DNA from: Verrucomicrobiia bacterium
Lineage (GTDB): Bacteria > Verrucomicrobiota > Verrucomicrobiia > Limisphaerales > JADLHS01
DNA: 64,000 nt
Assembly: GCA_026125285.1 (NCBI GenBank)
Contig: JAHCLO010000018.1
Coordinates: forward strand, 62,001 to 126,000
Direction of reading: 5' to 3'
The notes below the pieces were generated by a model. The model did no database searches. It was not told the DNA's origin and was given only the letters and a program-made list of their open reading frames with translations. Made by a program: the position numbers and the translations under genes. Shown piece by piece: positions 7,209-41,654 of this stretch; position 1 is the first letter of the stretch, and each line of letters begins with the position of its first letter.

Positions 7209-7221
7209 TCACCGGAGTGAA

Positions 7222-7473
7222 ATGTTTATGCAGATCCTCGCGCGAATCCTGCCCGTCACGCTGTTACTTTGGTTTCTCACGCCTGCTATCGCAGCGAACT
7301 CCAAACCCAACGTGCTGTTCATCATCTCGGATGACTTGAACAACTTCCTCGGCGCCTACGGCGAACCGCAGTGCATCCAACTGCTGGAAAGGAAAGCCGA
7401 TACCAGGAAGCCCTGCATACTCCGCACCTGCCACCCTGTCGAGACGCAAGAATCGCGGCGAGCCTGCGGCTGA
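7222..7473 (+). pseudogene. third sulfatase, truncated after about 50 residues
   Basis: Starts 13 bp after the previous sulfatase with a signal peptide (MFMQILARILPVTLLLWFLT) and the diagnostic sulfatase opening KPNVLFIISDDLNNFLGAYG. Around position 7370 the similarity to sulfatases ends, and the remaining 30 or so codons are Arg/Cys-rich and look like non-coding DNA read in frame. No C-x-P-x-R motif or later sulfatase segment follows. A dispersed repeat begins about 20 bp after the ORF ends. The gene was probably the third member of a sulfatase operon before an insertion or deletion removed its body. Confidence 0.75.
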
Positions 7474-7479
7474 GGGAGT

Positions 7480-7891
7480 ATCAGAAACGAAGTTCGCACT
7501 TTGCGCCTGTGAATCGTAGCCGCCGACGTGAGTCAGCTCTGACTTCCCTTTCCACTTCAGATGGTGCGGACTCACGTCCGCTGCTACAACATGGGAAGCT
7601 GTGACCAATCCCAGATTGGACACGCATTGGATCCATGAACAGCATGCTGCACACCTCTGGCCGGCAGATCAAATTCCTTTGTCTTCAGTGAGACCTGTCG
7701 GCGGGACGCACGGCAGCACGTTGAGGTTCACGATAAGCGGTGCGGGACCCAAACCGACAGGCTTTCCGGCGCCACGGGCCTTACACCCACTTTCCCACAG
7801 GCCAAGCGAGATGGAAGGGATGCTCGGCGCGAACACACGCTCACACAAACTCACGCGCTCTCCGCGCCTCAGAGCTAACGCATCTCCGTCA
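7480..7891. other. non-coding stretch behind the truncated sulfatase
   Basis: Apart from the family A repeat at its start, I see no convincing gene in this interval. Short open frames on both strands have no recognisable motif or signal peptide. It probably replaces the deleted body of the third sulfatase. Confidence 0.5.
7489..7590 (+). repeat. dispersed palindromic repeat, family A (copy 1)
   Basis: Contains AATCGTAGCCGCCGACGTGA and, about 50 bp later, GCGGACTCACGTCCGCTGCT. A second copy lies reversed at 40391-40500 inside the ABC permease gene. The two copies match at 32 of 36 positions over the first block and 20 of 22 over the second. Here the copy lies just behind the broken sulfatase. 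Confidence 0.7.
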
Positions 7892-23486: not shown

Positions 23487-24037
23487 AGAAAAATAAATTA
23501 CAACCTTAACGGGCAACCGTTCATTGGCAGGCGGAAGACGTTGCAGCTCAGGGGAATCCGCCTCCTCACGTCGGCGGCTACCAAGGGCAGGTTCGTGGGA
23601 AGAAAGGGCTGGCTATTCCACGCAGGGATTCCTGGAGGCGCTGCGCCAAACAGAGCCGCGCGCCAGAGTCAGGGTCATTCGACGGAGTGATGGGTGACGG
23701 GAAGCATGGTGCTTCTGCCACTCATTTCGGCCAGTTTCCCGTGATCAAGCCTGGGGTGGCGGCCCCGGTTTCACCTTGTCGTTTTTTACTTTCCTTGGTT
23801 CGTGAAGTCTTCCCCACTTCACGGAACTGCTTTCCGGGTTCCAACGCTGCTTTTGGCTGTCTCCTGATTTCAGGCCATCCCCTTCCGCGTCCGGCCCTTC
23901 ACCCTCTTTCCGTTCATGTCCCAAATGTGAACGAAGATGTCCCAACATGGGATAGATTCCACGCAGTTAAATGAGGTTGAATCACCCCGTTCGCACAATT
24001 GTGCAATTACAACCACGAACCCAGAAAGGTTAGAAGT
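23487..24037. other. non-coding interval upstream of a PEP-CTERM gene
   Basis: I see no gene. The first part is probably the right end of the IS110 element. The last 120 bp carry two ATGTCCCAA boxes and the probable promoter of the PEP-CTERM gene, with a purine-rich site (CCAGAAAGG) before its ATG. Confidence 0.4.
23916..23945 (+). promoter_or_regulatory. direct-repeat operator candidate ATGTCCCAA x2, 21-bp period
   Basis: ATGTCCCAA occurs at 23916-23924 and again at 23937-23945, exactly 21 bp (two helical turns) apart, about 93 bp upstream of the first PEP-CTERM gene. The same arrangement with the same spacing is found upstream of the second PEP-CTERM gene at 28.7 kb. This suggests a shared activator site; the binding protein is not known. 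Confidence 0.55.
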
Positions 24038-37800: not shown

Positions 37801-39039
37801 TCAAGGAGACTCCCGAAACCGCACCGAGACTCTCTGTCCCGAATACGTCGGCTGCTGCGCCTGAACAATCTCACACAACACTTGCAAAGTTCGCGTGTCA
37901 ATGCGGGCCGATGTGTCGGGGTCAAACAATCGCTTCGGCCCAAACGCCGGCAATATCATCCGCACGCGCAAGCGGCCTGTCTCTCCCGGCGCGCCCAACG
38001 CGGTGAAGCTGCCTTCCGCTCCAACCCGAATCCGATACACGTCCGCCTCATGCACTTCGACGCGCACTTGGAGGCGTTCCGTGTCGGCCATACGCAAGAT
38101 CGGCGTCGGATAGTTCAGCAAGACTTGATCGCCCGCGCGGCGATGGAGTTGGAGGATCGTTCCTGCAAACGGCGCGCGCACTTCATGCAGTTCGTGATTC
38201 GCCCGCGCCACGGCCACTTCGGCGCGGGCGACGGCGACTTCCTCCGGCAACGGCCCGCGCTGCATCGCTTCAAGCTGCTTTTGCAGGCTGACCACTTGTT
38301 TCTTCAGGCTGTCCACCCGCTGCTGCCGCGCTTCCAAAACGTCATCCGACAAAACGCGCTCGGTCTTGAGCTTGCGGGCGCGCGCCAGTTCGCTTTCGGC
38401 AAATACCAATTCCGCTGCCAGCGCATCCCGCTGTGCGGCGGTGGCGGCGATTTCCTCCGCGCCGAATCCTGCCCGCACCCGCGCCAGTCGCGCTTCGGCC
38501 AGTTCCAATTGTGCCTTCTCGCGCCGCGCGTCCACCGTGGCCAGCAACGCGCCGGCCTCGACGCGCTCGCCCTCCTTCACGGATACGGACACGAGCGTGC
38601 CCGCCATCTGCGCCGACACGTCCACCTCGCCATCCACCGGCTCGACGCGACCCACGCAAACGAGGAAGGACGGCGAGTTCGTTGCCAACGTTCCGGCAAG
38701 GCTGGCCGGTGAATTTGTTCGCGCCCCGAGTGCCCATTGAATCGCCACCCAAGCGGCAATCGCAACAATGACGACGGCCACGGCCAGACCCACCTTCACA
38801 AACCCGCCACGCCGGGGCAGAGCGTATTTGAGCAATGCTCGTCGTCGCCGGGTGAGGTCACCCGGCCTACAGTCCAACGACAAACTTCCTCCTAAATGTA
38901 GGCCCGGTGCCCCCACCGGGCGATTGTTCAAAAACGCTTGCGGGTCACCCGGCCTACAAACACCTGTAGGCCGCGTGCCCCCACGCGGCGTTGGTTTTGA
39001 CGTCGTGTAGAACACCATTCGTTTCAGCCATCTATTCAT
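37801..39039 (-). CDS. HlyD/DevB-type membrane fusion protein of an ABC exporter
   Basis: 412 residues. The membrane helix (VKVGLAVAVVIVAIAAWVAI) is followed by the barrel-sandwich start (VDGEVDVSAQMAGTLVSVSV), a long coiled coil rich in Ala/Arg/Glu, and the return strand (HELHEVRAPFAGTILQLHRR). The ATG lies within the end of the ATPase gene (8-bp overlap) behind GGGAGG, which supports this start although the first 60 residues are unusual: they contain a family C palindromic repeat read in frame. It is the last gene of a five-gene operon and should link the permease to the outer membrane. Confidence 0.88.
   Translation of the reverse strand: MNRWLKRMVFYTTSKPTPRGGTRPTGVCRPGDPQAFLNNRPVGAPGLHLGGSLSLDCRPGDLTRRRRALLKYALPRRGGFVKVGLAVAVVIVAIAAWVAIQWALGARTNSPASLAGTLATNSPSFLVCVGRVEPVDGEVDVSAQMAGTLVSVSVKEGERVEAGALLATVDARREKAQLELAEARLARVRAGFGAEEIAATAAQRDALAAELVFAESELARARKLKTERVLSDDVLEARQQRVDSLKKQVVSLQKQLEAMQRGPLPEEVAVARAEVAVARANHELHEVRAPFAGTILQLHRRAGDQVLLNYPTPILRMADTERLQVRVEVHEADVYRIRVGAEGSFTALGAPGETGRLRVRMILPAFGPKRLFDPDTSARIDTRTLQVLCEIVQAQQPTYSGQRVSVRFRESP
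38849..38990. repeat. dispersed repeat family C, in frame inside the HlyD gene
   Basis: Variants of GGGTCACCCGGCCTACA and TGTAGGCCC/CGGTGCCCCCACCGGGCG alternate four times. On the minus strand this is translated as segments such as RPTGVCRPGDPQ and NNRPVGAPGLHLGG within the N-terminal cytoplasmic part of the adaptor. The reading frame is kept. Confidence 0.7.
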
Positions 39040-39709
39040 AGAGCCTCCCGTCTTGCAGTGTCAGCAAACGATCCGCGATGCGATGCAATCGGGCATCGTG
39101 CGTGGCGATGACCACCGCCACGCGCGTCTGCCGCGCCGCCTCCTGGATCAAGGACGCCAGCGCGTCGGCGGCGTGGGCGTCCAGTTGCGACGTCGGTTCG
39201 TCCGCCAGCAACACATCGGGCCGGGGCGCCAGCGCGCGGGCCAGCGCGGTGCGCTGTTTCTCACCGCCGCTCAACGTGCCCGGCAACTTGTCCGCCTTGG
39301 CCGCGATGCCGAGCAGTTGTAACGTCTCCGTCACCCGCCGCGCCTCCACGAGCTGTCGCTTGAGCCGCAAGCCCAGCGCGACGTTGTCCCGGACGCTCAA
39401 CGCCTCCACCAGATGAAAGTGCTGAAACACAAAGCCCAGATGCCGTCGCCGCGCCTCGGTGCGGGCCGCTTCGGAAGCCTGATTCAACTCCGTTCTGGCA
39501 AGGCGCACCTCGCCGGCATCGGCGCGCAGCAACACCCCGGCAATCTGGAGCAACGTCGTCTTGCCCGAACCGGACGGCCCTTGCAGCAATACGATTTCGC
39601 CGCACCGCACTTCCAGCGACAGCCCTTCCAGAACGCGCAGCGGGCCGGTCGGCTCGGTGAACGACTTGTGGACGCCACGCAATTCCAGAATGGCCGAGCC
39701 GTTGTTCAC
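39032..39709 (-). CDS. ABC transporter ATP-binding protein (DevA/LolD-like)
   Basis: About 225 residues. All nucleotide-binding motifs are present: Walker A LLQGPSGSGKTTLLQIAGVL, Q-loop region LGFVFQHFHLVEALSVRDNV, signature LSGGEKQRTALARALAPRPD, Walker B VLLADEPTSQLDAH and the H-loop ATHDARL. I chose GTG at 39709, whose GTGA overlaps the stop of the permease gene, instead of the longer frame that starts 42 bp earlier. The small size and motif spacing fit the MacB/LolD/DevA group that powers three-component exporters. It lies between permease and adaptor genes. Confidence 0.92.
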   Translation of the reverse strand: MNNGSAILELRGVHKSFTEPTGPLRVLEGLSLEVRCGEIVLLQGPSGSGKTTLLQIAGVLLRADAGEVRLARTELNQASEAARTEARRRHLGFVFQHFHLVEALSVRDNVALGLRLKRQLVEARRVTETLQLLGIAAKADKLPGTLSGGEKQRTALARALAPRPDVLLADEPTSQLDAHAADALASLIQEAARQTRVAVVIATHDARLHRIADRLLTLQDGRLYE

Positions 39710-40962
39710 GCGCGAAACGCCTCTGCCGGCTCCAGGTGAACCACCTTCCACAACGCCGGCACACAGGCCAGCGCCGACGCCAGCGCGATCAAACCCAGCA
39801 CTGCCAGCGCGGTCGTGGGTGAGATCACCACGGAAATGGTCGTGCGCGCCAGCGCCGCCAACGCCGCCGCCAGCGCAATGCCGGCCACCAGACTGCCTGC
39901 CACGAACATCACCCCCGCTTGGAGGCCGATGACGGCGGCAATCTCGCTGCCGGATGCCCCCAGCGCCTTCAGCGCCGCAAACACCGGCAGCTTTTGCACC
40001 GTCAGCAGGTAAAACGTCAGCAGCACGGTGAGAAAACCGACCAATGCTGCCAGCCCCGCCGAAAGAAACAGAATGGGACCAATCCCCGTGCGGCTTTCCC
40101 AGTAGTGCTGCGTCAGGTCATGCAAAGCGCGGGCGGTGAAAACATCGTGCTCCGGCAGAGCCTCCTGCAACCGTCCGGCCACCTGGTCCACGTCCGCTCC
40201 CGCTTGGCATCGGACGGCGACAAAACTCACATGCTGGGCCGGCAACCCGAGAAACCGCCGCGCATTGTCGAAGTCCGTGACCACGAGACAGGAAGTGCTG
40301 AACAGTTTCTTGCCCCGCACAAAGCCGACCACCTTCGCTCGCCGCCCGTGGATTTCCACCTCCGCGCGCGGTTGACTCGCGGTGAATTCCGTGGCAGCGG
40401 ACGTCAGTCCGCTCCATCTCTCTTCGGGAGAAGTCAGAGCCGACTCACGTCGGTTGCTACGATTGAGGAGTTCAGAGCGCGAAGCGAAGTGCGGAACTTT
40501 CACGCCCAGTTTGGCGGCTGCTTTTTCGTCCACGAGCACGTGCCCGTCGGGTCGGAGCAACGCGCCCGCGTTCTCGAACGGAACGCCGAAATCGAAGCGG
40601 ATGCCCTCGTCAAACTCAATACCCAAGACTTGCACGCTCTCCTTGGCTCCGGTGCCGGGGATGCGCCACTTGCTCCAGTCGAACACCACCCGCGCGGCGG
40701 ACGCCACGCCTGGCACATTGCGGGCCTGCCAATACGCCGCGTCATCGAGGTGGACCGCGTAATCGAAACTCAACAACGCCTGGGGCGCAATCCACAGGTC
40801 CGCGTCAAACGAATCCTGTACGACGGTGATGTCTCGCTTGAAACCGAAATAGAACCCGGATTGCAGAAAAACCAAGAACAGCGCCAACGAAATCCCGAAA
40901 CCTGCCCCAGCGTAGCGAATTGGTTCGTGTCCCATCATTTTCACCGCGGTAAGTCTGAGCAT
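39706..40962 (-). CDS. ABC transporter permease, DevC/FtsX type, with in-frame repeat insertion
   Basis: About 418 residues from MLRLTAVKMMGHEPIRYAGA. One N-terminal helix (GFGISLALFLVFLQSGFYFG) is followed by a large periplasmic domain and three C-terminal helices (GPILFLSAGLAALVGFLTVL; GVMFVAGSLVAGIALAAAL; ALAVLGLIALASALACVPAL), the FtsX/MacB layout. The end resembles cyanobacterial DevC. In the periplasmic domain a stretch of about 30 residues (NRSNRRESALTS...ERWSGLTSAAT) is encoded by a family A palindromic repeat and is unlikely to be native. The gene lies 5 bp after the HAD phosphatase gene. Confidence 0.88.
   Translation of the reverse strand: MLRLTAVKMMGHEPIRYAGAGFGISLALFLVFLQSGFYFGFKRDITVVQDSFDADLWIAPQALLSFDYAVHLDDAAYWQARNVPGVASAARVVFDWSKWRIPGTGAKESVQVLGIEFDEGIRFDFGVPFENAGALLRPDGHVLVDEKAAAKLGVKVPHFASRSELLNRSNRRESALTSPEERWSGLTSAATEFTASQPRAEVEIHGRRAKVVGFVRGKKLFSTSCLVVTDFDNARRFLGLPAQHVSFVAVRCQAGADVDQVAGRLQEALPEHDVFTARALHDLTQHYWESRTGIGPILFLSAGLAALVGFLTVLLTFYLLTVQKLPVFAALKALGASGSEIAAVIGLQAGVMFVAGSLVAGIALAAALAALARTTISVVISPTTALAVLGLIALASALACVPALWKVVHLEPAEAFRA
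40391..40500 (-). repeat. dispersed palindromic repeat, family A (copy 2), in frame inside the permease gene
   Basis: Reversed relative to the copy at 7489-7590 and about 90 percent identical in its two conserved blocks. On the coding strand it is read through without a stop and adds about 36 residues to the periplasmic domain. Confidence 0.75.
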
Positions 40963-40967
40963 AATGG

Positions 40968-41654
40968 TCACCAGTCGATAAGTTCTCTGGGGATTCCCCT
41001 TTCCAAGTCCAGAATTCGCCAATGCCGCTCGCGCGCCACACGAGCGAGACGTTGGGTGGGATTAACTACCACTGGATGGCCCACCCAAGAGAGCAACTCA
41101 ACATCAGAAATGTGATCGCCGTACGCGTAGCATCGCTCAGGTGCATAACCGCGCGCCACACACAGTTGTTCAATCAACTGCCGCTTACCGCTGCCGTAAG
41201 GCTCAGGCGTCTCCCGCGCACCAGTTAGAACGCCTCCTTGCTCCATAAGTCGTGTGGCCACGACGAACTCAATCCCAAGAAAGTTGGCCAAGGGCATTGC
41301 CAACGATTCGAGAGCAGAGGTCACCAAGATTACTGCGTGTCCGTTGCGCCGATGACTGTCCAGCAACTTTGAGGCAAAGCTCCGAATTCGGCGACTCATG
41401 CACCCGTCAAAGAACTGTTGCCCGAACTCTGCCAGTTCTGTGGCTGACGTGCCTTGGAACAAATCGAAACCTGCATCGCGAAGTCGCCGCGCATCTTTTG
41501 TTAATCCCGCCACATAAGCCGCATAACGAAAGAAAACCAAGGAAGAACGAAGCAGGCGCGCTCGGCGAGTTTTTAGACACCACAAAAGAAACGAGAGCTG
41601 AGATTCGCCTCGCAAAAGCGTGCCATCCATATCAAAGAAAGCAGCTGCCGTCAT
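40968..41654 (-). CDS. HAD-IB family phosphatase
   Basis: 228 residues. HAD motif I is AAFFDMDGTLLRGESQLSFL, motif II the Thr/Ser in AVILVTSALESLAMPLANFL, and motif III/IV the Lys and Asp pair in YGSGKRQLIEQL and CYAYGDHISDVELLSWVGHP. This is the subfamily of phosphoserine-phosphatase-like and CicA-type enzymes; several members are fused to or paired with PlsC acyltransferases and may act on lipid phosphates. Its ATGA overlaps the stop of the acyltransferase gene, so translation is coupled. The exact substrate is unknown. Confidence 0.9.
   Translation of the reverse strand: MTAAAFFDMDGTLLRGESQLSFLLWCLKTRRARLLRSSLVFFRYAAYVAGLTKDARRLRDAGFDLFQGTSATELAEFGQQFFDGCMSRRIRSFASKLLDSHRRNGHAVILVTSALESLAMPLANFLGIEFVVATRLMEQGGVLTGARETPEPYGSGKRQLIEQLCVARGYAPERCYAYGDHISDVELLSWVGHPVVVNPTQRLARVARERHWRILDLERGIPRELIDW

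Follow-up and report, generated by a model that had tools for sequence, protein, structure and literature searches.

The repeat within the permease gene

How a repeated stretch of DNA comes to lie in frame in the gene for a membrane protein is the question raised by positions 40391-40500 of the window, as we call the whole stretch of 64,000 nucleotides from a Verrucomicrobiia bacterium that was analysed. An earlier note on this DNA had placed a repeat there, reversed relative to a partner at 7489-7590. Our analysis indicates, with a probability that we put at about 85%, that the segment is a REPIN, one of a family of dispersed repeats that occurs order-wide in Limisphaerales-type Verrucomicrobiota, spreads as non-autonomous mobile DNA and, within genes, is kept in frame. 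The features at the locus are as follows.

40391..40460, no strand assigned: head-to-head GTAG REP dimer of subfamily I, 70 bp, near-palindromic (census, BLAST family, dimer pattern, DNA fold)
40391..40414, plus strand: REP unit, GTGG-tagged hairpin with a degenerate GTAG head (sequence; head with 1 mismatch)
40437..40460, minus strand: REP unit, GTAG-tagged hairpin CCGAC-GTGA-GTCGG (sequence; head with 1 mismatch; fold)
40461..40484, minus strand: outer flank common to intergenic long-form copies (profile score 14.6)
40363..40494, minus strand: entire stretch of 44 codons that is extra in comparison with DevC-like homologs (alignment, 8/14 gapped, 6 ambiguous)
39706..41022, minus strand: MacB/DevC-like ABC permease ORF with the insert, exact start codon uncertain (Pfam)
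39032..39751, minus strand: ABC ATPase gene beside the permease (PF00005)
37801..39039, minus strand: HlyD-type membrane fusion protein gene beside the ATPase (PF13437)

The 70 bp at 40391-40460 form a near-palindrome made of two facing GTAG-headed hairpins, that is, a head-to-head REP dimer (REPIN); the earlier note had recognised the repeat while missing this architecture. Its halves are GTGGCAGCGGACGTCAGTCCGCTC (plus strand) and GTAGCAACCGACGTGAGTCGGCTC (minus strand), separated by a spacer of 22 bases; one head is GTAG, the other the degenerate GTGG, and the copy is 2 bases off the strict dimer pattern of the family. DNA folding gave a small hairpin beside the tetranucleotide head in each half (z -2.09 against 200 shuffles), the short imperfect palindrome beside the head being the CCGAC-GTGA-GTCGG hairpin in one case and its partner hairpin in the other.

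Both originally proposed spans contain their dimers, at 40391-40460 and 7516-7587, and extend on one side into outer sequence, which includes 24 bases common to intergenic copies. Specifically, the 24 bases preceding the GTAG head of the permease copy (40461-40484), scored against a profile of seven intergenic copies, exceed all 20000 random 24-mers of the window, and the flank of the copy at 7516 likewise lies above all of them. Among the 24 in-gene subfamily I copies the permease copy is alone in reaching such a score, the other 23 being far below, and its opposite side fits the long-form profile weakly (p 0.03). Since the flank at 40461-40484 fits the intergenic profile, the permease holds the long form, at least on one side.

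The remaining repeat features of the window are these.

7516..7587, no strand assigned: partner REP dimer, 72 bp, outside any coding-like ORF (same architecture as 40391-40460)
7492..7515, plus strand: outer flank of the partner, same long form (profile score 16.9)
23565..23581, minus strand: lone head of sister subfamily II (GTAGCCGCCGACGTGAG), no partner head seen (head census)

That the two window copies are real and reversed relative to each other is borne out by an inverted pair of 54 nt, 80% complementary. Just upstream of the partner dimer a presumably sulfatase-like start (KPNVLFIISDDLNNFLGAYG, 7215-7460) is cut short. The family had been called a second, unrelated one, which may be partly wrong: the sister-subfamily head at 23581 has the same GTAG end and GACGTGAG core.

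The host permease and its homologs

The permease matches MacB_PCD at aa 42-173 and FtsX at aa 321-432, and these two domains, with ATPase and HlyD genes adjoining, identify it as a MacB/DevC-like exporter permease. The insert, at aa 177-220, falls between the two Pfam matches, which agrees with the in-frame insertion in the extracytoplasmic domain that had been proposed, and the reading frame used is open through the repeat, with no stop, as also stated at the outset.

The suggested alignment with homologs was carried out. Eight of the 14 aligned permease homologs (L071-L074 and L080-L083) have no counterpart of that length between ...LGVKV and EVEIHGRRAKVVGF, while the other six (L070 and L075-L079) have other native sequence at this place, where the alignment is ambiguous; the repeat peptide occurs in 0/14, and conservation of the segment as part of the domain was not seen among them. 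Measured against the cleanly aligned homologs, the extra protein comes to about 44 codons and not to the 36 residues first claimed. The dimer is spanned by 24 of these codons, and the remainder lies outside it, in sequence that is in part common to intergenic copies. The empty site rests on distant homologs, six of the 14 aligning other sequence there, because no close ortholog was found: matches occur in 15 of 57 genomes, the own genome included, and those in the others are 25-32% identical. A contig scan with the permease gave 145 pattern stretches and no relative by tblastn, and the search for solved structures gave no convincing relative (best E 0.11).

The six homologs with other sequence at the insert place would be in keeping with a segment native to this permease subfamily and merely repeat-like. 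We consider this extremely improbable, given that the genome has 43 matches to this DNA, that unrelated proteins contain the same peptide and that eight of the 14 homologs lack a counterpart. A further reading, that the permease is decaying and that its in-frame state is luck after a recent insert had inactivated it, is unlikely. There is indeed no close ortholog to show constraint, and the 44 codons of the insert exceed the 19-30 codons spanned by dimers in other genes; but codon usage is coding-like on both sides of the insert (0.28 and 0.23 per codon), the ATPase and HlyD neighbours are intact, 0/91 dimers of the genome lie in a visibly broken gene and the single alaS of the genome itself bears an insert. 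The alignments support an insertion of about 44 residues in a loop of the extracytoplasmic domain, presumably exposed. The permease protein is probably still made and may act as a transporter, with an insert that is likely to be neutral or nearly neutral.

A dispersed repeat family with two subfamilies

The genome of origin (7.16 Mb in 79 contigs) was searched for further copies. A 99-bp query gave 43 matches, the best after self with E 1.7e-20. The head pattern GTAGCNGCNGACGTNAG occurs at 205 sites against 0 for the reversed control, the head motif GTRGCNGCNGACGTNAG (with GTRGC) at 220 against 1 for the reversed-pattern control, and the paired pattern at 50 head-to-head sites, each found on both strands, against 0. 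Units of the family have an unpaired GTAG tetranucleotide at one end, and the heads lie outside in head-to-head dimers.

Two subfamilies could be told apart. Subfamily I, to which both window dimers belong, reads GTAGCAGCSGACGTGAGTCSGCTC; the sequence of subfamily II is GTAGCCGCCGACGTGAGGAGGCGGA, and most of its copies are exactly 71 bp long. Head and core (GACGTGAG core, GTAG end) are common to both. The motif was present in 12/12 family genomes examined and in 71/116 genomes of the order.

Copies within genes

From stretches of the own genome we collected 91 distinct dimers, and the reading frames around each were scored on stop codons and on codon usage, for which 26 long ORFs of the window served as the training set. 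By these measures 31/91 dimers lie in frame in coding-like ORFs. To be counted in this class, a dimer had to lie in an ORF that runs through it without a stop and whose codon usage is coding-like before and after it. Since openness was a condition of that class, the absence of broken genes (0/91), and not openness itself, is the independent evidence. If any frame and phase were hit alike, about 2/9 of gene hits would stay open, and 31 open against 0 broken would have a probability of 5.6e-21, a figure that depends on a crude definition of a broken gene and counts paralogous copies (L020, L021, L106, L025) as independent. Independent in-gene events number fewer than 31, some copies being paralogous duplicates.

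The subfamilies differ in how often they lie in genes: 24/50 dimers for subfamily I and 7/41 for subfamily II in the 91-dimer set, which was in part chosen by similarity to the permease copy. In the pattern-only set, comprising 49 of the 50 paired sites, the counts are 13/22 versus 2/27 (Fisher p 1.3e-4). Random 71-bp windows were scored as in-frame coding in 850 of 2000 draws. The in-gene rate of subfamily I is close to this random rate; it therefore has no preference for genes, and an enrichment there was rejected, while subfamily II avoids genes. Lengths of 1 modulo 3 are found in 17/24 genic subfamily I copies versus 8/26 elsewhere. Length modulo 3 alone was rejected as what separates the subfamilies, 3/7 genic subfamily II copies having the common length of 71. 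With regard to phase, the repeat is in itself permissive: of the three phases at its head, the sole one that is always closed is that in which GTAG yields the stop TAG. Translation of in-frame repeats would give segments like SNRRESALTSPEER.

Nineteen host ORFs were scanned with Pfam, and the following were named.

Alanyl-tRNA synthetase (L118)
MutS (L036), two dimers
UvrA (L065), two dimers
EPSP-synthase-type protein (L139)
Ser/Thr kinases (L020, L025, L038)
Pnkp (L109) and Hen1 (L030)
Cas3 (L116)
Eco57I-type methylases (L110, L117)
DNA methylase (L122), two dimers
AcrB-type pump (L114)
Solute-binding protein (L027), two dimers
DUF1015 protein (L055)
Rax2-type propeller protein (L026)

Host ORFs L123 and L143 had no Pfam match. 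The peptide motif does turn up in unrelated proteins, as had been anticipated: kinases, MutS, UvrA, Cas3 and others. The inserts are absent from solved relatives of MutS, UvrA and the kinase; in the AlaRS search against solved relatives, the two printed alignments stop short of the insert. For alaS and mutS one match each was found in the own genome at E<=1e-30, so that an insert is present in the only alaS gene seen, a gene expected to be essential. In-frame insertion is common in this genome, also in essential genes.

Two host loci have peculiarities of their own. The UvrA-type ORF (L065:1-3015) consists of C-terminal UvrA sequence followed by N-terminal UvrA sequence, in a tandem or fused arrangement, and holds several repeat-derived insertions, one of them between the ABC signature and Walker B. 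The RNA-repair genes for Pnkp and Hen1 lie about 5 kb apart on contig C78, with an in-frame dimer in both.

Empty sites and recurrent loops in MutS and AlaRS

At the first MutS site the own gene has 60 more bases than 9 aligned relatives, and since the own dimer measures 70 bp, some target sequence must have changed there. At the second site, a dimer of subfamily I is common to relatives L167 and L172, and GTAG-type palindromes of other kinds are present in other relatives, while at the third, judged by eye, different palindromic units occur in most of 10 relatives. In alaS, relatives L147-L150 are about 48 bases shorter where the own gene has its dimer, a place occupied in L151 by a different GTAG-like unit.

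The MutS loop between the VPND motif and GPN, before Walker A, measures 34-71 residues in all 11 family members (L166-L176). In a wider collection of 80 MutS loci, 62 gave an ORF, 9 of these without a loop match, and the loop was 17-18 residues long in 45 of the 53 measured; two of the eight longer ones repeat family members already counted (L184 as L169, L185 as L171). The longest exact inverted repeat of the family loops was greater than in all 50 shuffles in 5/11 cases. We also observed that this loop differs between lineages of the family and is often palindromic in DNA.

These loops, taken with the common insertion codons of kinase paralogs, could mean that in this bacterial family REP dimers are a recurrent, position-specific source of protein loops, insertion or retention being directed to particular protein sites and perhaps tuning repair; we put this forward as a rather doubtful proposal. 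A separate reading is selection for the inserted peptides, in which REP dimers tune repair and stress proteins and the retained copies are adaptive. Different repeats do fill the same MutS loops in relatives, the hosts include MutS, UvrA, Pnkp and Hen1, and a similar speculation for repair genes appears in the accessible part of PMC3733652. The hosts as a whole, however, are very mixed (kinases, Cas3, a permease, a solute-binding protein, DUF1015), and inserts in the same loop differ in sequence between species, which fits tolerance better than a selected sequence, so that we hold adaptive retention to be distinctly improbable.

Possible routes of mobilisation

For the non-autonomous element favoured here, copies would most likely spread in the form of single-stranded hairpins on which an HUH transposase of the RAYT type acts. 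A copy in a gene would survive only if the frame stays open and the landing loop is tolerant, and at the present locus a long-form copy would have landed in a loop of the permease extracytoplasmic domain.

The own genome has 11 PF01797 (Y1-transposase) genes; four were scanned, and one (L007) scored over the NCBIfam cut-off for REP-associated tyrosine transposase. A subfamily I/II head (<=2 mismatches) was found at 0/11 of these loci, with 1.3-2.4 kb scanned on each side. In 11 related genomes, 0/20 RAYT-like loci had a paired subfamily I/II copy; tagged hairpins of other families, one or more per locus, were present at 17 of these 20, a count made with no chance control. Of 30 better-matching Y1 loci in the related genomes, 4 had a related head, one of them (L281) with a pair about 1 kb from the gene. 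Single tagged hairpins of other families lie close to L004, L005 and L006. As a separate observation, the RAYT-like genes L007, L008 and L263 stand near several GTAG/GGAG-tagged hairpins of other REP families and are candidate REPtrons.

The kinase paralogs L020 and L021 are 81% identical, yet a mismatch-free tract of 164 nt runs over one insert; between L020 and L106 the insert differs at 6/90 bases (93% identical) in genes that are 74% identical, and the differences start 1-3 bases outside it. The same-codon inserts of the three paralogs are thus far more alike than the surrounding genes, as if recently copied or homogenised, and gene conversion may help to spread copies.

Movement independent of a RAYT, through an IS200-type TnpA or through recombination or gene conversion between copies, is accordingly worth weighing, and we regard it as possible, if somewhat improbable. 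A cognate RAYT for subfamilies I and II was not found at the own and related loci listed above, an IS200-type gene is present in the own genome, and the identical tract of L020 and L021 and the insert of the third paralog point the same way. Against this, a GTAG head, a hairpin and head-to-head pairing form the pattern tied to RAYTs in the accessible part of PMC3733652, and RAYT-like loci of related genomes commonly have a tagged hairpin of another family at hand, in the uncontrolled count given above.

Relation to known repeats

REPINs, in the description of Bertels and Rainey from 2011, are reportedly inverted pairs of REPs scattered through a single genome, and are said to lie mainly outside genes and to be linked to a RAYT nearby. 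For subfamilies I and II no such adjacency was found here.

GTAG REP families, with head-to-head dimers, RAYT association and in-frame intragenic REPs, are known from Di Nocera et al. 2013 (PMC3733652). According to the accessible part of that paper, intragenic GTAG REPs are most numerous in Opitutus terrae, another verrucomicrobium, both of whose uvrA genes hold double insertions; different REPs occupy about the same recB site in two Xanthomonas species; and RAYT loci flanked by the same repeat are frequent but not obligatory, and may be lacking altogether. The present family resembles those described there, in particular those of O. terrae, in its unpaired GTAG end, short stem-loop, head-to-head dimers, verrucomicrobial dispersal and in-frame insertion in ORFs, uvrA included. 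It differs from the families of that text in having a long form with a conserved outer flank, and in that subfamily II, unlike subfamily I, hardly ever enters genes. Rickettsia palindromic elements (RPE), as presented in the same source, are likewise palindromic and in frame in many unrelated proteins, but they are CGTC-tagged or longer and belong to obligate intracellular hosts; the heads of the family studied here read GTAG, and the CGTC tag is absent from them.

Because in-frame intragenic GTAG REPs are on record in the accessible part of PMC3733652, this kind of event is already known. The present results contribute a new family, or a new occurrence in another group, set beside the 24 families of that paper by description and not by sequence, and, beyond the known kind, the contrast between subfamilies, the long form and the MutS loop series. 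A search of the literature by title found no paper on the subfamily I/II repeats, a result that leaves their absence from the literature unproven. Throughout a whole bacterial family, proteins contain peptides encoded by mobile DNA, those of single-copy alaS and mutS among them. The inserts are natural maps of insertion-tolerant sites and a caution for annotators and modellers, and two matched subfamilies, one entering genes and the other not, provide a means to ask what lets a REP live in coding DNA.

Other repeat types in host genes

A second repeat type (GGAGCGCCGAC...GTCGGC and its inverse) lies in frame at the third MutS site of L166 and in L030, giving peptides like ADLEIG, and resembles hairpins near the RAYT of L008. 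In addition, the Eco57I-type methylase ORF L110 contains, at about aa 400-480, a proline/glycine-rich, repeat-like stretch that perhaps belongs to another repeat family.
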